Below are positions 2,345 through 20,390 of a stretch of DNA of 20,390 nt, in pieces. The notes beneath the pieces are model-generated. The model was not told the origin of the DNA, made no database searches, and was given only the letters and a program-made list of their open reading frames with translations. The stretch comes from Geosiphon pyriformis (Eukaryota > Glomeromycota > Glomeromycetes > Archaeosporales > Geosiphonaceae), in contig JAAOMT010000097.1 of NCBI GenBank assembly GCA_016748015.1, positions 199,104-219,493 of the forward strand. Direction: 5' to 3'. The translations under genes were made by a program, and so were the position numbers. Position 1 is the stretch's first letter; each line of letters starts with the position of its first letter.

Positions 2345-3233
2345 AGAAAAAAATAACATAGTTTCAACAAATACCAACCTGAATTAGAAATCAAGACGTT
2401 TTATAACTATTAGGAAAAGTCCTTTTATATTTTACACAATTTAGTAGCCCCAAGTTCAAATGATACATACAACTCTAGCGTCAATAAAACCATAGGAAAG
2501 TTCTTCGTCTCGCGCTATCAACCTTTCTCGAAGTTCTGCTGCATTAGAAACATTTTTAAATAACGCGACATGGACTAAACCTCGGGTGGGGAATAGGTCT
2601 AAAGGAAAAGACTCCATTTTTCTAAAACCTATTATAAATCGTTCAGGTGAATTAATTTAGAAATTGATTGACAAAAAATTTTATCTGAAAATTTTATTTT
2701 TATTGCATTAATTAAGTGTGATCTAATATACACTACATTAGATTTAATAAATGAACCTTTAGCATCCATCTTAACAAAATCACTTAACCAAATCCTGGTT
2801 CTCTTTCTGGATTCCTTTACATACAGTTTTTAACATAAGCCAACTTAATTTTAATAGTTTTATTAAGAACTAGAATAAAAAACTATATTTACTTGAAAAA
2901 ATTTTATTGTTTTTAAAATATTACCAAAACCAATAGTATATTTTTTTTTTAAAAAAAAATTGTTTTGGTTTCTATTTTATCAACTTAATCTTTGGAATCA
3001 AATAATTCAATAAATAAATTAATTAAAATTACATGTAAAAACATAACTTTTTTTTTTTTTAGAATTGGCAAAAATTAATGTATTAAATAATTTAATTATA
3101 AATTAATTCAAATTAATTTTGGCAAAAATATTACTATTGTTAATATTTAAAACAAAAAAAAAATTTTTTTATAACCAAATTGAAATTAAGTATTATAATT
3201 GGTACAATTGTATTTTTTTTACAAAAAAAACAG

Positions 3234-4503
3234 GGTTCGTCAGTACGCACCTTTGGACTATGTTAGGGATGATGCTTTTTTAGGTGTTATGAGTGCAATC
3301 AGTATGGGCGAGTTACTTTCTGTTGTTGGTGGTCTTCCTGATGGCAAGACTGCTGGTTTGTCTGGTGTTCCTAATGAATTATGGAAACATGGTGGTGAGG
3401 TAGTTTTGGGGTGTCTGCTGGCGCTGTTTAATAAATGTTTGTCGGGTGGTGTGATGCCTGTTTTGTGGAAGAGGGCTTGGGTGTCTATGATTCCTAAGCC
3501 TTATGACTGGGATGGAGTTCTTACGAACACTCGGCCCATTGCTTTGATTGAGACTGCCAGGAAGATTTTTTCCAAGATTCTGTCTGACCGTATTTTAATG
3601 GCTTGTAGCAAGTTCAATATTCTTCAGGGTGACAACTTTTCGGTGCTGAAGGGTATGTCAACACAATCTCTGGTGTTTGCTATTAGTTCGGTAATTAAGG
3701 ATGCCATTGAGAAGGATAGGGAGTTATGGTTGGTCTTGCAAGATATGCGGAAAGCTTACAATTCAGTTGGGTGGCATCATTTAAGAGCTAGTTTGCAGCG
3801 TGTCAAGATGTGTGAAAGGTTCATAAGGTTTTTTGGTGGTATTCATGAGGATAGAGTTAATAGGGTGATGACTGACTTTGGTTTGTCTGGTGGTTATAAG
3901 GTGCATGATGGGCTGGACCAAGGTGAGATCTTTTTACCACTTCTTTGGAGGATTTTTTATGATCCGCTTTTGTGTGAGGTTAAAAGGCACGAACAATTAT
4001 GTGGGTACCAGATTGATACTAAGTTTGTTTCGAAATCTGGCAGGATTAAGGGCAGTGGTGGTTTGACATTGTATTTTTCGGCTGGTGCGTTTGTCGATAA
4101 TACGATCTGGGTTGGAAATTGTCAGGCTTCTACTCAATATGCTCTGAACATTGCCAGTGAATTTTTTGTGATCAATGACATTTCTATCAATAGTGAGAAG
4201 ACGGTGGCTATTCCCATCAATCAGGGCGTTAAAGTTGCTTCACTGAACATTTGTGGTCAGCCAATCTCTATTGCCAAGAAAGGGGAAGCACATCGATATC
4301 TGGGTATTTTTCTGTCGACTGAGGGGCTCTCCAAGCCGAGTGTTGCCAAGGCTCATGCGGATGTACGTTTCTTCGTCAATGTTGTGCTTAGGAAGGCTAT
4401 TACAGACAAACAATTCTCGTATCTGGTGTCAGCTGTTTTGCAGCCTATTGTTAGCTATTGTACTCAGTTCAGTTTTGTCTCATCTAATGTTTGTCGCAAA
4501 TAG
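3234..4503 (+). pseudogene. LINE reverse transcriptase domain (truncated, inactive)
   Basis: This part of the frame carries the LINE reverse transcriptase domain, which copies element RNA at a nicked target. Visible in order are a finger segment with NTRPIAL (about 3526-3546), motif A in LQDMRKAYNSV with the catalytic Asp codon at 3742, motif B in GLDQGEIFLPLLW, motif C as AFVDNT, and a motif D/E region ending near HRYLGIFLS. Motif C normally ends in two Asp residues; the second is Asn here (AAT at 4099), which should abolish catalysis. The frame begins at the element junction with no native start. It ends at TAG 4501-4503, beyond which the same frame continues directly into the RNase H half, so the stop is a nonsense mutation and not a natural end. 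LINE assignment is confident; the clade is not assigned. Confidence 0.9.
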
Positions 4504-6471
4504 GATGTCTTGGTTAGAAAGGGTCTTAGGTCCAAAGCTTGTCTCCCCTGTGATTTTCCTGACGCTGCTTTGCATCATCCCTCATTGTATGGCCTAAAGC
4601 TTTTTGAGCAGATGCAGTCTGAAGGGAAGGTTGCTGCTTTGATGGCATTCTCTAATGCTTTTGGCATTCTTGGGCATTTGTTTAGACATAGGTTTTTGGA
4701 CCTACAGGTTCTTGGTTGGGCTCCTTTGGATCCTTTGCAGTTTCCAGTCAGGTTGCGTGTTAGTCCGGTGAACAATTTTTTGGCTGGGATGGTGAAGATC
4801 TTTCTGGGCAGTAAGCTTACTTTGGTGAACAACCTCCCTACTGCATTTCATAGTCCTGGTCGGTTCCCGTTGTCCTCTGTTCTTGGAAAGTCTCTGTATT
4901 TTGATTTGGTCAAATCTCTTAAGTGTTTTGGTGTCGCTTTTGGTGATCGGCTTTTTGATAAGAAAGGTGTTTTGTTGGATTGGAAAACTTTTTGTCATTG
5001 GAAGAGGTTGGATCCACGTGGCCTTGTGCCTCACTGGTTCATGGTTTCTTCTGAGTTTTTGAAAGGTCAGGGTTACTCATTTTCTGGTTTTGTTGGCTCA
5101 GCAAAGAAGCTGGGTTTGGACATTTTGGGGTCTGGAGAATTTTCTGCGGTTAAAGATGGATTGCATGACATTTGGTCAGACTCTTTTGAAGTTTTCACGG
5201 ATGGGTTTTTGAGGAATGCAGGCTCTGCTGAGGTCGCCTGTGGTGCTGCTGCATACTTTCCAGTCTTAGATATGAGTATTGGTGTCGCTGTTTGTGGTCT
5301 TTTGTCATCTACTATGGCCGAGTTACAGGCTGTCACTTTGGCTTTGGAGTGTGTTCCTTCTTCAAGTACTGTGGTGTTGCGTTTTGACAGCCAGGCTGCC
5401 ATTGACGCATGTGTGTCTGAGATGTCTTTGGTTGCTTCTGATTTCCGTAATCAATGCTGGCTGGAAAGGCATCATATTTTCAATTTGGTCAGGGATAAGG
5501 ATCTTAGTGTGAGTTGGGTTAAGGTAAAAGGACACTCTGGGATTCCTGGTAATGTGAGAGCTGACTTGGCTGCTGGGGCTGCCTCTGGGTCTCCCTTTTC
5601 CCTTTGTGCCGATGTGCGTGAACATTTTTTGGTTGCTGAGGGTGTTGCTGTTTCTGGTAATATCCATCATTTTGTCAGAAATATTTTTCGATCAATTCAT
5701 TGTGCTCGTTGGGAAGCTGGGCCTGGTTGTGATGTAGTTCCGGATGCAATGGTTGGTTGCATAGACTGGGTTGTCACGGTGAAGGTGTGGCATCCTGATT
5801 TTTATATGCTTGCTGGTTTCACTAGCCGCGCATCCTCATCACTTTGCACTTATGTTATGAAGGCTGTGCACAGGAGGTTGCTGGTGGCCATTAGGAAGAG
5901 GTTGTATGATAAATGCTACCCTAGTGTGTTGTGTTTGCTTTGTGATGAGGTGGAGTTCTCTGACCATGTTTTTACTTGTGTTCATGAGTCTGGCATTTGT
6001 GGTGAGATTTTGGCGGAGGCTTCTGCTCGTTGGTCAGCTTTGTCTGGTGGTTCCTCTGCTTCTGCTGTGTTGTGGGTTTTGTCTCAATGTTCCATTGATG
6101 TTGGGCTGTACACTTTGGTATGCAAAGGGTTTGTGCTGGAGGAGTGATATGAGGAGGCTTGCGATGTTTTTGAGGATAGAAAAGTGGCCACTGCTAGGAT
6201 TGTTGAGTATGTCAGGTTCGTTGTTGGTTTACATCGTGCTAAGGTATGGTTGGCTAGAGCCAGCCACCGGGTGGTGATAGAGAAGACTGGTCTGGTCTGT
6301 GATGTTGGTATTGTTTCTGGGCTCCCTTGTGGTGTGTCTTCGGTTTTGTCTGACGGTGTTGTGAGATTGCTTGGTTTGGCCAATTCCTTTGCTGTTAGCT
6401 TTGGTCGTCAGAAGCCTTTTTGTTTCTTTTCTGGTCTGGGTGGCAGTGTGCGGGTAGTTATAGCTGTGTAG
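4504..6471 (+). pseudogene. LINE connection, RNase H and zinc-knuckle region
   Basis: This continues the RT frame after TAG 4501. After a long connection region comes a type I RNase H domain with all four expected acidic residues: Asp in FTDG (5200), Glu in MAELQA (5320), Asp in RFDSQAA (5386) and Asp in NVRADLAAG (5563), the last following the KGHSGIPGN segment. RNase H degrades the RNA strand after first-strand synthesis. A C-terminal CLLC...DHVFTC cluster (about 5935-5985) matches the zf-RVT zinc knuckle typical of such LINEs. An in-frame TGA at 6145-6147 interrupts it, and the same frame then stays open to TAG at 6469-6471 with matching amino-acid character. The RNase H active site is intact although the RT site is not. 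Confidence 0.88.
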
Positions 6472-6617
6472 TGTTGCCTTGTCTGGCCTGAGTGGCTAGC
6501 CATATGTAGAAAGTGCATGAGTCGCGTTTAGTTTGAGCCTCTTAGTTTGGTTCTATGTACTAGATAGCAATTGGGCTACACTCGTTAAATGCGTTAATAA
6601 AAAAAAAAAAAAAACAG
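6472..6617 (+). other. LINE 3' UTR and poly-A tail
   Basis: About 125 bases of non-coding sequence of the same G/T-rich character as the LINE body, ending in 16 A (6599-6614). CAG after the tail restores the left-junction word. Confidence 0.75.
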
Positions 6618-7601
6618 ATTTTAAACCAAAAGCCATAACTTAAAAAATATTATTTAGTTTTTTACTTTAAAAAAACTTTTTAAGTATTAAAACTATTAAA
6701 AACAATAAAAAAAAATTTATTTTATTTTTTATTTTAGTTGTAAACATAAAAATATATATATAATATTAAAAATAAAATAAATATTATATTTATTAAAACT
6801 TTGATTTTGTTCTTTTATAATTCCAATTTATTAAATTAACTCTATAATTTAAAAAATTAGTTTGTTTTTAACTTGTTCAAAAATGTAAAAAAAAATATTT
6901 AATAATAATAAAACTTTAAAATACAATTTACGTAATTATAGTTACAAATAATATTTAAAATATTTTTAATTAATAATTTTACAAATAAATAAATATTAAT
7001 TTAATAAATTAATTGTTTATTATATATTATAAATTTTTATACAAATTTTTTCATAAGTTAAAATTATTTTATAATAGCAACTAATATTTAATATAATAAC
7101 AGTAAACATTATTTAAAAATATCAAAAAAAAGTATTATAATATGTTTTTTTATAAAAATATAAATATATATATATATATATAATAGTTTTAATATTAAGA
7201 AAAAAAAATTTTATATTATTTGTTTTATTTTGAACTAAATATTTAAATAAACTTTTAATTAATTAAAAAAAATTAAAATTAAAATTAAAAACCAAATTAT
7301 TACAATAAATTTTATTTGTAACTATTTATTAAATAAAATTGTTATTTATTAGCTAAATTTTTAAAAAAAAATAATTTTTGATTAAAATTATTTATATTAT
7401 TAATAATTATTTAAACCTTTATTGTAAAATTAGAAAAAATACTAAAAAATTATTAATATTTTATGTTTTTAAATTAGAAAAAAACTTTAAATAATTGTAA
7501 AAATAATTTTAAAGAAAACTTTAACAACAGCAAATAAATTTTAGATTAATTTTTAAGAAAAAATACATAAACCACATTATAATATCAACAAAAAATTTTT
7601 C
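6618..7601. other. AT-only spacer
   Basis: Almost pure A+T with short (AT)n runs (for example about 7164-7183) and TTAAAA-type words. I see no coding, RNA or mobile-element signal. Confidence 0.8.
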
Positions 7602-10398: not shown

Positions 10399-10899
10399 AT
10401 GACAAGCGTAGCACTTCCTTCTATCGATGAGTTTATGTTGTGGTTCAAAATGGCATATGTAGGATTATCCCCATATAAAAATAATTTTATGAGACTAATT
10501 TACATCAAATCTACAATGGAACCAAAAAACTATAGTACCATCAGAAGCATTTTAAAAAAAGAACAAGGCGAGAAAATTGCTCCTTACGTTTTTAAGATAT
10601 CTGATACGAAAGCTATAAAAGAATATTTGGATAAAGAGAGAATAACCTATGAAATCTACCAGCAATTGCATATCATTTCTAATAGAAGTATAAATACCGC
10701 TTACCAAGATATTTCTGGACGAAATCAGCAGGAATTAAATTCTAAGAAACGAATATCGTCAGAAGCCCTTCAAGAACCAAGGAAAAGGAGAAAAGTATCA
10801 GAAGTATATAGGATTAACCCTATATATTTTAACACACTGCATAGAAGAAGTTTTACAAAACCAGACAAACTGAAAATAAAATATATTATATGGTTATGA
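10399..10899 (+). CDS. Hypothetical protein
   Basis: I do not recognise it. The frame is open from at least 10264; ATG 10399 is the first ATG in a plausible context and gives 166 residues to TGA 10897. The protein is Lys/Ile/Glu-rich, with a probable helical middle (around KEYLDKERITYEIYQQLH) and a basic RKRRK cluster near residue 133, which could be a nuclear localisation signal. Composition changes within the frame at about 10435, from GC-richer upstream DNA to AT-rich downstream DNA, so it may be a fusion across an insertion junction. The last 30 residues look like translated spacer and overlap the start of the transposase frame at 10890. It could be a real exon, an accidental frame or an N-terminal relic of the adjacent element. 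Confidence 0.35.
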   Translation: MTSVALPSIDEFMLWFKMAYVGLSPYKNNFMRLIYIKSTMEPKNYSTIRSILKKEQGEKIAPYVFKISDTKAIKEYLDKERITYEIYQQLHIISNRSINTAYQDISGRNQQELNSKKRISSEALQEPRKRRKVSEVYRINPIYFNTLHRRSFTKPDKLKIKYIIWL

Positions 10900-12618
10900 T
10901 GACCGAATACGAAAAAGCAATTGAATTTTTGAAAGTAGGTTGTGGCTGCGGTTGCTCTTCCAAAGTTCCCACGGAAGCGTTTGCCGAGATGCGCGAGGCT
11001 TTCCAAGCCAGAACAAGACATCTTTTTAATGGCCCAACTTAAGGCCATGGATGGTGGATCCATAAGTGCTAGTCGCCGTCTTAAGAAAAAGGTCCGCGTC
11101 AATAAAAGGACTTTATACTGCTGAGACAGCAATACATCTCTTTGTCAGAAAACCTATTTGAATATGCTAGGCATTGGTCGATCTCATTTTGAGAATGTAC
11201 GAGATCATCTGCTAAATAACGGCCTTCTTTCCAGGGTTCATGGTAATGTAAAAAGAATGCCGCGGTGAAAAACCAAGATGGTTATTGATAAAGACGTGAC
11301 TACCGCAGTGAAAAATTTTCTCTTAAATTATGCCGAAGTCCATGGTTTACCTAGCCCAGTCAGAAATGTTAATCGCGTGACTCAATCAATTACCTTTTTA
11401 CCAGCGGAAATGAGCTACAAGTCCGTTCACAGTGATTTTTTATCCGGACTAGAAGATGGTAGTACTCTGTGCGCACTCAAATATGATGCTTTTCGCAAAC
11501 TATGGCATCACCTAACTCCATATACCCAAATCATGAGTCCTCGAACCGATTTATGTGATACCTGTCAACACTTGCGGAATGACTTGCAATTCAAAGCTCG
11601 CAAAGAAGAAGAGGCCCGGGATTTATTAAAAAAATATAAAGAGCATCTTGCCAAAGCCAAGTTAGAGCGTGACTATTACAATAGAAATACTAGGCTAGCC
11701 GGAGAACAAAGGAAACTTGTTGATCAGAACTATTCTATGCTGAAAGGCAAGCCATTGCACTGCAACATTAACGCGGTCGCGCATTACAGTTATGACTGGG
11801 CCCAAAACGTCCACGTACCTCATTCTGATCAACAGATTGGCAAAATATATTACCTTAGTGCTCGTAAAGTGCACCTGTTTGGTATCCAAGATGAAGCGGT
11901 GCATGAGCAAATTAATTACGTTCTTGACGAGAACGAACTTCTTGGAAAGGGTCCGAATGGTACGTTAAGCCTGGTTTTCGATGGAATTAAGCAATTGAAT
12001 AAAGGCGAAAAGCATTTGAAAGTCACTTGCGACAATGCAGGCGGACAAAACAAAAACAATACCACTCTTTGATTTTACCTGTACCTGGTAATTGTTGGCT
12101 ATTATGAAAGTATTGAATTGAACTTCATGGTTCCGGGCCACACTAAATTCAAGTGTGATGGTAGTTTTGGTTTGATCAAAAGACTCTATCGCAAAACTAC
12201 AGTAGATTGTGTTGATCACATTGTAGATGTGGTGAAAAGGTCCAGTATTGCAGGACTAAATAAAGCTCAGCGTTACAATGGCAGAGACGGCTTTCAATAT
12301 TTTGACATCATAAGTGGTCTGGAAACCTACTTTAAAAAACTGCCTGGTCTGCAAAAGTTTCAGCATTTCCTCTTTACCAGTGCTAATCCCGGTGTAGTAA
12401 ATGCCCAAGGAGTTGCTAACGGACCTTTCCAAGAATTCAAATTATTAAAGGCTGAGAAATCAGATGCTCCAAGAGTGATAAAGAAAATCAAGACCTTGTC
12501 ATTTCCAGTGCTAATGCCTCCTGCTATGGAATTGAAACGCCAGGAATACCTTTATCACAATATTCGCCCCTTTGTTCGAGATGAATTCAAAGATATTACT
12601 TGTCCAAGACCAATCTAA
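10890..12618 (+). pseudogene. Eukaryotic-type transposase-like ORF with in-frame TGA codons
   Basis: The N-terminus starts in one frame (ATG 10890: EYEKAIEFLK, then a GCGCGC cysteine cluster, to about residue 38) and continues from about 11000 in another frame to TAA 12616-12618. That frame is interrupted at 11122, 11266 and 12070, each time by TGA and never by TAA or TAG. Recognisable blocks are SKPEQDIFLMAQLK, CQKTYLNMLGI, RVHGN, NYAEVHGLPSP, a LWHHLTPY...MSPRTDLCDTC segment with a CxxC (codons 11554 and 11563), YDWAQN (Asp 11794), CDNAGGQNKN (Asp 12031) and GHTKFKCDG (Asp 12157). From memory this set resembles a broad eukaryotic DDE-type transposase family seen in animals and fungi; the three Asp are candidate catalytic residues. 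No clear terminal inverted repeats were found. Under the standard code it is broken; under code 4 only the frameshift remains. Confidence 0.7.
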
Positions 12619-12630
12619 TCTACACTGTCA

Positions 12631-12648
12631 ATAAATAAAATTATTTAT
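12631..12648. repeat. 8-bp AT inverted repeat between two ORFs
   Basis: ATAAATAA and TTATTTAT are separated by AA, in the 39-bp gap between the transposase-like and HAD-like frames. It has no GC stem, so it would be a poor terminator. Confidence 0.5.
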
Positions 12649-12657
12649 ATTGCCAAT

Positions 12658-13599
12658 ATGAATAATCAAAACCAAATTTCATGTCTCCACTGCTTTATCA
12701 AAGAACAGGCAAAAGTCAAAGGGAGAAAGTTAAAAATTATTTGCGATTGGGATGAATGTTTAACACCTTCTAAGCCTTTCCTTCTGTGGGAAATTGGAAA
12801 CAGAAATATGTCTTTTAAAAGTTATTTTCAAAGTTTTTGAGAGAAAGCAGAAATTATGCTCTATGATCCCGATGGTTTTACTTTAAGTCCCAAGAGTAAA
12901 ATAAATGATAACCAAGACTGGTGAAACTATTCTTACATTGATAAGAGTGACGTTAATGAGATAATCAATATAAAATCACTAAGTGATCGAAAGGAAAGGT
13001 GGAAAATGAAGCAAAAGAATCATTATAGTGATCAGCCTGATTTCTATGATCGGGCTCCTTCCCTTTCTATAGCCAGAGAATTGCTATTGGCTTTAAAGGA
13101 GGATCTGGTTGAAGAATTGATCATTTTAACTGCTGCTATGAAAGGAAGATATCCTAATGATGGTGGTAATCCCAAAAAAATTAAGAAGATTGAGGAAACT
13201 TTCGGTCATTTTCCTCAGTGTAAATTGAAATTCATCCCAACTGTCAAAGAGAATGATGGTTATTTTCCTCTAAGATGGGTGTGAATGAAAGAAAATACAC
13301 CGGATTTCGATATTTTTATTGATGATAATCCAGTTATAGTGCAAAAAGCGAAGGAAACTTTCCCCGAGAAAATTTATATTCTACCTAATTATGCTCCGAA
13401 CAGACACAACAAAGCCCCGAACATTTATCATCTAAAAACCAGTGTCAATGATTTAAAAAATCAAGATTTCGCCATTGCTGCCTTAGAACTAAAAAATAAA
13501 CAATTAGAACAAAAACTAAAAGCTCTGCAAACACGAGAGAGTTTTTTGGATGATAATCAGTGGATCACTACTTTTTCTCTTAGTTGTTTTAGTGTTTAA
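12658..13599 (+). CDS. HAD-phosphatase-like ORF readable only with TGA as Trp
   Basis: A single frame runs from ATG 12658 to TAA 13597-13599 with three TGA codons (12838, 12922, 13282) and no TAA or TAG. Read as tryptophan it gives 313 residues; under the standard code it stops after 60. HAD-superfamily features appear in order: motif I DWDEC (residues 30-34, nucleophile Asp30 in a DxD), motif II Thr158 in IILTAAM, Lys-rich motif III in PKKIKKIEETFG, and motif IV IFIDDNP (Asp222/Asp223). A CxxC (C9, C12) precedes the domain and a coiled coil follows at about residues 275-300. A phosphohydrolase role is a family inference; the substrate is unknown. No Shine-Dalgarno is obvious. Near 13540 the frame probably slips, because the next frame ends in a hydrophobic LLFLLVVLVFKRKKK tail (stop TAA 13613-13615). 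The native protein was therefore probably membrane-anchored. A Mollicutes (code 4) origin is inferred. Confidence 0.75.
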
Positions 13600-13615
13600 A
13601 AGGAAAAAGAAATAA

Positions 13616-14429
13616 AAGTGCAAAAGAAAAGAGAAAGAGAGGTTGAAAAACAAAGAACAGTAGGCTATATTTTGAGCTGTTTACTCTGATTATCTTATAT
13701 GGTGGATATTGAATCATTAAGCGAAAATAAAATCTTCAAGCCTGATGACCGAGTGACGTCACATGTTCACTTTGTCTGGTTTTGTTGCAGCACGCCCCAT
13801 ATTTATTAATAAATTTCTAAAATTTGGTATAGTCGTTAGGCTAGCCGGTTAAACGCGACAGTTTTATCCAGCGCCGGTTTAGACAAGTTTCACTTGTACA
13901 GTTAGATAGATACAATATCACATGCAAATAAAGCCTGTTTTAAAGTCACAGCTGTGAATAATAATAACAAATTAGTTAATCTTAACCACACCAGCATCTT
14001 GGAGTTTATTTAAAACATAAAGTTGAATCCAAAAATCAAATTTTCTATAATTAATATTTTTTAATAAAAACCATTATTGTATTTGTTCACTTCGAAAAGT
14101 ACTAATTGTTTCATTTTTTTTTGTTAATTATATAAACAAATAAAAATCATTTAAGCTTATTAAATATATTTTATATATAATAAATATTACTCATTTTAAG
14201 CGCAGCTTCAATTTTAAAAACAAAAATAAAGACTGTTCCAACATGTTTCAACTAGAATGGCAAGAGAAATAGTTTGTTTATAACATAACATTTGCTCATT
14301 TTGTAATAATCCAGTAAAATATAAAGAAAATGAAAGTAACTTACAATATGTATTGTATTTTTTGATGTTTTATATGTATTAGACTTCTTAAAAATAATTC
14401 TGAACTGTATTTAGAGAATTCGGATTTTG
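13616..14429. other. AT-rich spacer right of the TGA-containing ORFs
   Basis: No supported gene. One notable site is a perfect palindromic CRE, GTGACGTCAC, at 13753-13762. A short GC-richer island at 13740-13880 may mark the return to host sequence; beyond it is AT-rich DNA without domain-like frames. Confidence 0.5.
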
Positions 14430-15328: not shown

Positions 15329-15397
15329 GCCGGCCATCCACTAGACGATGACTTGCCATTCCTGGCTTCCGAAAGACCTAAACTCTGCCGCAGACGC
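15329..15397 (+). repeat. 69-bp direct repeat, copy 1
   Basis: Matches 15441-15509 with two mismatches over 69 bases and no gaps. It begins GCCGGCC and ends CAGACGC, and is GC-richer than its surroundings. The copies fall in different reading frames, so coding is not what preserves them. Confidence 0.93.
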
Positions 15398-15440: not shown

Positions 15441-15509
15441 GCCGGCCACCCACTAGACGATGACTTGCCATTCCTGGCTTCCGACAGACCTAAACTCTGC
15501 CGCAGACGC
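15441..15509 (+). repeat. 69-bp direct repeat, copy 2
   Basis: Second copy, 112 bases downstream of the first (start to start). Such close spacing and near identity indicate a recent tandem duplication of a unit of about 112 bp, or two copies of a dispersed short repeat. Confidence 0.93.
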
Positions 15510-19019: not shown

Positions 19020-20390
19020 ATGAAAGCATCAAATAAGTTGTTCAACCCATCTTCCTTTAATTCCCTTCCTAGTAAAGAAGCAATAATGGGGTCAAGGGGA
19101 ACCGATAAAGTCCTCGAAAAAATCCAAGAGGCGCTAGATAGACAAAACTATTATGAAGCTCACCAAATGTACCGTACTGTATGCAGACGGTAAGTTATTT
19201 TGGACATGATCAATAAAGTACGTGTTTTCTGCAACTTTTTCATAACCCTTTCCTAAGCATCTGACTTCCAACCTTGCTCACAAAATGCTCCATTGCTGTA
19301 GATTAATAAAGCAAAAGCAGTACAGTAAAGCAATAGATTTGTTGTATACTGGTGCGCGTTCTTTGTTGGAGCATAAGCAAAGTGGCAGTGCAACCGACCT
19401 TTCATTATACATGATCGATGCATATTCTGAGGGAGAACTGCCTGTTACGGATGAGTCGAGAGGTTTTTTGTTCATTTTTAATTTTTTATTACTGAAACAT
19501 TGTCGTCTATTTGGACTAATCAAAGATATATAAAATATAGATCGATTGATTCAACTAATGAAATTATTTCCGTATGACGAACCTGGTAGAAAAAGATTTT
19601 TTGATACCGCCATAGGGTAATTTAAGGGATTTAATGTGTTTCCTGGCACAATATTCATGAAATATTAACATTTTTTGCCCCTTCTAAACCCATCGTTAGT
19701 TGGTCTGTCAAATTCGGGGAAAGTCCTGCTGGTGATCCAGAGCTACATCATTGTGTCGCAAAATTGTTTTGGAAAGGTGACGATATAATTAAACGCCAAC
19801 TACGATATATCTATTAAAATCAACTTGGGCCCCCAATTCTAAGGAAAATTAAATTTACTTGCAGACAAAATATACCAGGAAGCAGAATCCCATTTTCTCG
19901 CCGGTACATCTGAAAGTAGTGCTGCATATGGCCAGATGTTGGGAGAATGGGCAGCTCAAGATCAGCCGCATAAATGCGGTGCTTATCTTGCCCGCGCTGT
20001 ATTACAGTAAGTAAATTTATCTCAAAATAAATACGTTCTTTTAATTGCTGGAAATTTTGATTAAATTCTTATCATTGACAGGTATTTATGTCTGCGAAAT
20101 ATTCATGACGCAAAAATTGCGTTTAATAGCTTTGAAGCAGCCATATCTGCAAAACATGTCGGTCAAAATATATTTTCTGGAACCTCTTCCTATCGACAAA
20201 CCGTGAACGGTGATAGCATCGAATTGCCAATCTATAATATACCCTTACTAAATTTTTTGCAGTTTTTGATCTTAACAGTACAACGTGACGCATCTGATTT
20301 ATTTGTCACGTTGCGTAATAAATACAAAAGTGAATTAGAGATTGAGCCTACTTTTGAAGATGTAAGTGGTTATTTTTACCTTTTTCGCTT
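19020..20390 (+). CDS. GET4: GET4 (TRC35), guided-entry-of-tail-anchored-proteins subunit, 5' part
   Basis: Six exons are visible: 19020-19189, 19302-19462, 19541-19616, 19700-19776, 19865-20006 and 20082-20361. All introns are GT-AG with matching phases, giving 302 codons so far. A strong donor (GTAAGT, 20362) shows that at least one more exon lies beyond the window. ATG 19020 is the only plausible start before the conserved helix with YYEAHQMYRT. Further family landmarks are YSKAIDLLYTGA, DLSLYMIDAY, RFFDTAI, WSVKFGESPAGDPELH and LLNFLQFLILTVQRD. The protein is an all-helical TPR-like repeat protein of about the usual length (roughly 310-330). Get4 bridges Get5 and Get3 in the cytosol, handing tail-anchored proteins from Sgt2 to the Get3 ATPase for ER insertion. 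Exon 2's donor (GTTTTT, 19463) is weak but is the only one keeping phase. Confidence 0.93.

Follow-up and report, generated by a model that had tools for sequence, protein, structure and literature searches.

The stretch of Geosiphon pyriformis DNA analysed here (20,390 nt of contig JAAOMT010000097.1, positions 199,104 to 219,493; referred to as the window) carries an open reading frame (ORF) for a HAD-like protein, which is open when TGA is read as tryptophan (Trp), as in translation table 4 (code 4). Upstream and on the same strand it adjoins a gene for a transposase-like protein (TP), and an inverted terminus lies downstream of it (Table 1). The HAD-like ORF represents cargo carried by a family of DNA transposons that has been inserted many times in the nuclear genome of the fungus, and the host genes that were checked do not share the code of this family.

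Table 1 Features of the transposon copy and of its surroundings (positions in the window)
Feature	Position	Strand	Remarks
Small ORF without Trp or TGA	10450..10896	+	Basic QEPRKRRKV stretch
Internal inverted copy of terminus core, ACAAAACCAGACAAACTG	10855..10877	+	Located 18 nt upstream of the TP start codon (ATG at 10896)
TP, transposase-like, Pfam DUF7869	10896..12618	+	Code-4 ORF 10942-12618, 558 codons, TGA at codons 61, 109 and 377
HAD-like cargo gene	12658..13599	+	313 codons plus TAA under code 4; TGA at codons 61, 89 and 209
Right terminus (terminal inverted repeat), ends CACTTTGTCTGGTTTTGTTGCAGCACGCCCCA	13763..13799	-	Flanks of the copies diverge directly beyond it
GET4 host gene exon	19285..19533	+	PF04190, E = 8.1e-16; outside the element, shows a eukaryotic nuclear context

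A prediction made earlier from the window alone (the original prediction) had described the HAD-like ORF as a 313-codon frame with three TGA codons and without TAA or TAG, and a recount gave exactly three TGA and zero TAA or TAG in a frame that is open in code 4. Such a frame exceeds chance, because it is not reproduced by dinucleotide shuffling: none of 5000 shuffles of the ORF was free of in-frame TAA and TAG. Over the interval 10801-13850, the longest code-4 frame has 559 codons, versus a maximum of 340 among 2000 shuffles. The motifs on which the family assignment had been based (DWDEC, IILTAA and IFIDD, which we take to be HAD motifs) are present, but membership of the HAD family stands by eye, since nothing exceeded the cut-off in Pfam or NCBIfam; a sequence search of the PDB gave no significant match, and phrog_420, a family of unknown function, was matched with E = 6.8e-5. 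In the window copy the ORF is damaged, in that the terminal residues DDNQWITTFSLSCFSV replace a hydrophobic C-terminal tail, which is open in another frame of this copy and has been kept in other copies.

The TP of the window matches DUF7869 (PF25273) with 63.5 bits (curated cut-off 26; E = 2.5e-17), and the copies on contigs C355 and C309 match it as well. A DDE-type core was matched weakly (DDE_Tnp, E = 0.083) in one copy, and AlphaFold models of TP and of the HAD-like protein were unusable, with predicted local distance difference test (pLDDT) scores of 32.6 and 41, respectively. The TP gene of the window is also damaged, its first part being in another frame (tblastn pieces 10896-11018 and 10999-12612, frames differing), and the only in-frame stops in 10942-12618 are the three TGA. 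Taken together, the two window frames have 6 TGA and 8 TGG as Trp codons. The stop of TP is separated from the ATG of the HAD-like ORF by 39 nt, and by 39-51 nt across the copies looked at.

The assembly of the host (124.7 Mb, 406 contigs) contains 91 matches to the TP protein and 34 to the HAD-like protein, where one copy may give several matches. The seven best-scoring TP matches have 24 in-frame stops, all of which are TGA. Each of the 35 matches that DUF7869 has in the genome falls on a locus of the TP match list, so that no separate standard-code version was seen. Codons were counted in the part of the matches that was fetched (34 merged intervals, 33 of which align to TP and 15 to the HAD-like protein), with the intact TP copy on C355 and its five Trp columns serving as the reference for TP. 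At these columns (33 copies, 138 cells) there are 78 TGA, 53 TGG, 5 TAA, no TAG and 2 other codons, versus 21 TGA, 40 TAA and 18 TAG in the 15,621 cells of the non-Trp columns. As TGA occupies three of these columns in the reference itself, a fair test has to use the two columns with TGG in the reference, and these (58 cells) hold 29 TGA, 27 TGG, 1 TAA, no TAG and 1 other codon. For the HAD-like protein, the Trp columns (15 copies, 82 cells) hold 52 TGA, 11 TGG, 8 TAA, no TAG and 11 other codons, with 21 TGA in the non-Trp columns, and for ORF3, another cargo gene of the family (3 copies, 12 cells), they hold 10 TGA and 1 TGG. TGA is present at one or more Trp columns in 32 of the 33 TP copies (the remaining copy covers no Trp column), and under the standard code TP is encodable by none of the 32 copies that were read at these columns.

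The original prediction that TGA stands for Trp, and not for a decayed arginine (Arg) codon, is strongly supported by these counts, as at the Trp columns the aligned copies give TGG (i.e. Trp) and no CGA (i.e. Arg). Selenocysteine, or any other meaning of TGA, is rejected by its alternation with TGG. The counts also bear on the possibility that the family consists of ordinary pseudogenes, whose TGA codons would be decayed CGA or TGG codons. TAA, TAG and TGA outside the Trp columns are indeed found in many copies (5 of the 21 non-Trp TGA in TP are at Arg positions), but the distribution of codons over Trp and other columns rejects both sources: 78 of the 99 TGA in TP are concentrated on five Trp columns, and G-to-A decay of TGG would produce TAG and TGA with equal frequency, whereas none of the 138 cells holds TAG. 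Moreover, TGA is the only stop among the aligned codons of 15 of the 33 TP copies (one fragment has no stop, and 17 copies have TAA or TAG), and purifying selection on the family is strong. Pseudogene decay is already contradicted by these data, and is highly improbable.

On a tree of 30 TP copies with at least 300 codons, from which the Trp columns were left out, TGA and TGG were interchanged at least 18 times (2 + 3 + 7 + 4 + 2 for the individual Trp columns, with some of the changes possibly in dead copies). The ratio of nonsynonymous to synonymous substitution rates (dN/dS; Nei-Gojobori under code 4) among 12 chosen TP copies was 0.05-0.18 wherever dS was measurable (from 0.18 upwards); there are two subfamilies, and most pairs between them are saturated. 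For eight chosen HAD copies it was 0.23-0.71 in 27 of the 28 pairs, the remaining pair (dS 0.026) reaching 1.25. The low dN/dS indicates that the copies diverged mostly while the protein was being made with TGA as Trp, and in combination with the interchange of TGA and TGG on the tree it strongly supports a reading of TGA as Trp during the evolution of the transposon family. The selection data do not by themselves tell where this translation took place.

The family has the inverted terminal repeats of a terminal inverted repeat (TIR) DNA transposon. The terminus CACTTTGTCTGGTTTTGTTGCAGCAYGCCCCA occurs 82 times at no more than 3 mismatches (42 times on one strand and 40 on the other), versus zero occurrences of the reversed control, and seven inverted terminus pairs were found within 12 kb, spanning 423 to 8594 bp, each end having 0-3 mismatches to the 32-nt terminus. 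In three of the seven (on C355, C81 and C370) TATA flanks both sides. The window copy retains the right terminus only: no outer left terminus could be located in the window, where the best match (14 mismatches in 37) falls on the internal copy, which forms with positions 13763-13785 a 23-nt inverted repeat of 91% identity. Whole copies (C355, C309, C294, C280 and C376) have the order terminus, left part of 2.2-5.0 kb, TP, cargo, terminus. On C404, where the left terminus is present and the right one degenerate, only ~0.4 kb precedes TP, an observation at odds with every element having a left half. The small ORF upstream of TP in the window can be read in both codes, and a homologous module is present in either orientation among the copies; its basic stretch (QEPRKKRK in C355 and C294) resembles a nuclear localisation signal.

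Two of the terminus pairs (C81:37600-38200 and C370:2169430-2170150) are as short as 423 and 541 bp, are flanked by TATA at either end, and represent non-autonomous copies in nuclear DNA. These imply transposase activity in the nucleus, which, without a TP that is readable in the standard code, leaves three choices: a bacterial enzyme, decoding of UGA by the fungus, or another enzyme. In the second case, the fungus would decode UGA as Trp for these messages (through a suppressor tRNA or programmed read-through) and the family would be an ordinary resident transposon, for which low dN/dS is expected as well if it is active in place; activity in nuclear DNA is shown by the short non-autonomous copies. 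However, host Cpn60/TCP1 genes, read through their introns (47 matches), contain 4 TGA, 11 TAG and 10 TAA, i.e. no excess of TGA, and up to 15 TGA per ORF would demand near-complete decoding. The preference of the HAD cargo for TGA over TGG (52 to 11) argues against it too, as does the lack of a tRNA gene (an element-borne suppressor) in the window and in 13 element loci. Decoding by the fungus therefore seems quite unlikely.

TP and cargo constitute a close-packed, same-strand block with TGA for Trp, bounded by the inverted termini, and the cargo is variable. The first type is the HAD-like gene, in the window and in other copies. The second (C355, C309 and C294) consists of a coiled-coil ORF2 followed by ORF3 at a spacing of 2-9 nt in all three copies; ORF3 encodes a cysteine-rich coiled-coil protein that is Zn-ribbon-like and without a confident family match, and its 11 matches in the genome hold 27 TGA, 1 TAG and 2 TAA. 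The third type, on C330 in a copy without a TP match, is a frame of 436 codons, among them 15 TGA and no TGG, that matches the HIT domain (E = 1e-7) and has 24 matches in the genome.

It is probable that the code-4 block of this family evolves and is translated in endobacteria, with copies passing into the nucleus. The likely source, as we infer it, are Mollicutes-related endobacteria, which combine code 4 with low GC: endobacterial genomes of such fungi are annotated under translation table 4 (PMC10507103), and the GC content given for recovered endobacterial assemblies is 29-33% (PMC11423566), with 22.8 and 24.7% for two assemblies from Linnemannia (PMC10507103). The GC content of the cargo (0.29-0.34 in four genes) and the operon-like layout fit such a source. 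Gene transfer has been described for these endobacteria from host to bacterium (PMC10507103). Under the proposed mechanism, the code-4 half would evolve and be translated in Mollicutes-related endobacteria of the fungus (Candidatus Moeniiplasma type). Copies would enter the nucleus repeatedly and be untranslatable there (dead on arrival), slowly gaining TAA and TAG, and the transposase that moves copies within the nucleus would not be made from nuclear copies. Of the lone endobacterial gene that was originally predicted, the Mollicutes-type source survives as the best inference. The gene is not a lone one, however: it is carried as cargo by a multicopy transposon, of which at least one copy also encloses a standard-code gene.

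A number of observations weigh against this proposal. Identical 4-bp flanks are absent in four of the seven terminus pairs (in C309 and C330 three of the four bases are alike, and in C294 and C280 the likeness is poor), and the GC content of TP (0.40-0.42 in two copies) is higher than that of the cargo and of endobacterial genomes, so that low GC with code 4 fits endobacteria for the cargo and not for TP. Before the starts, no Shine-Dalgarno-like motif was apparent by eye. None of 14 control prokaryotes has DUF7869, and a pattern scan of prokaryote contigs found no relative (with two patterns, one of which includes Trp, so that TGA at that position may be uncovered). A 2018 survey of Rhizophagus irregularis reported genes of bacterial origin, though without any that came from known endobacteria (PMC5982333). 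The absence of DUF7869 from the prokaryotes and the GC content of TP would instead favour a eukaryote or organelle in which TGA encodes Trp (a protist, or the mitochondria of a fungus) as the source, from which the genes moved into the nucleus, and table 4 is a mitochondrial code as well. Such a source is nevertheless unlikely in view of the 2-9 nt between ORF2 and ORF3, the several unrelated cargo genes, the near-endobacterial GC content of the cargo, and the fact that endobacteria are described from inside such fungi.

The endobacterial donor is a putative one, as the collections searched were without endobacterial genomes and no homologue was found elsewhere. Nothing related was found in viral contigs, phages, plasmids or the PDB, apart from 8 plasmids with a generic similarity to the HIT domain and one phage match that is insignificant (E = 0.6). 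A 16S primer pattern had 0 matches in the genome contig collection. COX1, looked for as a guide to the mitochondrial code of the fungus, gave no match in the assembly. A search of the assembly for bacterial small-subunit rRNA (SSU), in which 5 of 277 candidates were scored, gave one match, at C320:1044776-1046602, by eye nuclear 18S. This sequence has C-to-T and G-to-A changes at positions that we presume to be conserved.

The outcome of the SSU search also argues against an assembly artefact, in which endobacterial contigs would have been joined to fungal ones. Endobacterial contigs are known from fungal assemblies (PMC11423566), but the copies of the element are located on many contigs, some of which are over 2 Mb, and are at graded stages of decay. 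The original prediction had placed the ORF in a fungal contig, which agrees with the GET4 exon in the window and with the eukaryotic genes just beyond the right termini of two other copies (an aminotransferase gene on C309 and an HMG-box gene on C294). The probability of an artefact is practically negligible.

The copy on C376 (left terminus at 174654 with 7 mismatches to the 37-nt form, right terminus with 6) carries in its left part a Crinkler N-terminal domain in the standard code (PF20147, E = 2.4e-18; the best of four Crinkler matches in the genome), as well as a kinase piece (PF00069, E = 4.3e-10). The TP and HAD pieces on its right side use TGA, which means that two codes are present between one pair of termini. 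On C397, a 431-codon kinase frame (E = 6.6e-16) is located upstream of TP, with no left terminus found in the 2.2 kb fetched beyond the locus, and a piece on C280 resembles C397 by eye. In a Pfam search, none of the pieces submitted from the left parts of C355, C309, C294 and C280 exceeded the cut-off, so that the standard-code half rests on C376, together with the kinase frame of C397; six pieces from the left region of the window stayed below it as well. The ratio of TGG to TGA was 11:0 in left parts versus 10:28 in right parts (P = 1.2e-5), a comparison that is biased, since left pieces were selected for being open in the standard code, and non-Trp TGA are counted on the right. The left part of C376 may belong stably to the element as one of its halves, or may be host DNA that was captured once. 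Tentatively, the family might be a transposon of two hosts and two codes, in which one pair of termini encloses a eukaryote-type Crinkler/kinase gene in the standard code for the nucleus and an operon of TP and cargo with TGA as Trp for the endobacterium, and which would shuttle between both. Its nuclear copies would then rely on bacterially produced transposase, or else on an enzyme encoded in the other half. On C96, a Crinkler match (C96:242829-243059) is located ~5.3 kb from code-4 HIT cargo fragments (C96:248407-248990), possibly as another two-code element.

Compared with known systems, the family resembles cut-and-paste TIR DNA transposons in its inverted termini, its flank repeats in some copies, its transposase-like gene and its short non-autonomous copies, whereas the transposase gene of its nuclear copies is unreadable in the standard code. 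Candidatus Moeniiplasma and other Mollicutes-related endobacteria, as described in PMC10507103 and PMC11423566, live inside such fungi, are reported to exchange genes with the host, and have code 4, as the family does, and low GC, as its cargo does; but the transfers described there are from fungus to bacterium, as opposed to a multicopy element with TGA as Trp in the nucleus. Endosymbiont DNA in host nuclear genomes, such as the Wolbachia inserts that have been described, likewise consists of bacterial-type genes in the nucleus, whereas here the genes are bounded by transposon termini and belong to recurrent, diverged lineages. The Crinkler domain and kinase piece of C376 recall the Crinkler (CRN) nuclease-kinase proteins that are described as linked to transposable elements (PMC5289972), though in C376 they are linked to a code-4 transposase and code-4 cargo. 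No earlier report of such an element was found in the literature searched, which comprised listings and the starts of abstracts, with two 2015 PNAS papers on these endobacteria falling outside it.

If the proposed route is correct, mobile DNA can repeatedly enter a eukaryotic nucleus from a cell with another code, driven by an enzyme that is made elsewhere. The most interesting consequence would be nuclear transposition with no transposase readable in the standard code among the 32 copies that were read at Trp columns. The family would then constitute a sequence-level record of traffic between fungus and endobacterium, and allow a direct test of a symbiont DNA or protein route to the nucleus. 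As standard-code annotation breaks such genes, those of other fungal genomes may be overlooked.

Outside the transposon, the window contains a long interspersed nuclear element (LINE)-type element (3199-6471) with a reverse transcriptase frame and an RNase H frame, which looks like an ordinary retroelement; its RNase H frame reaches 6471 only through one TGA. Between this element and the region left of the transposon there is a tract of 11% GC (6501-7500), and a 69-nt direct repeat (15329-15397 and 15441-15509, 97% identical, starts 112 nt apart) is also present in the window.
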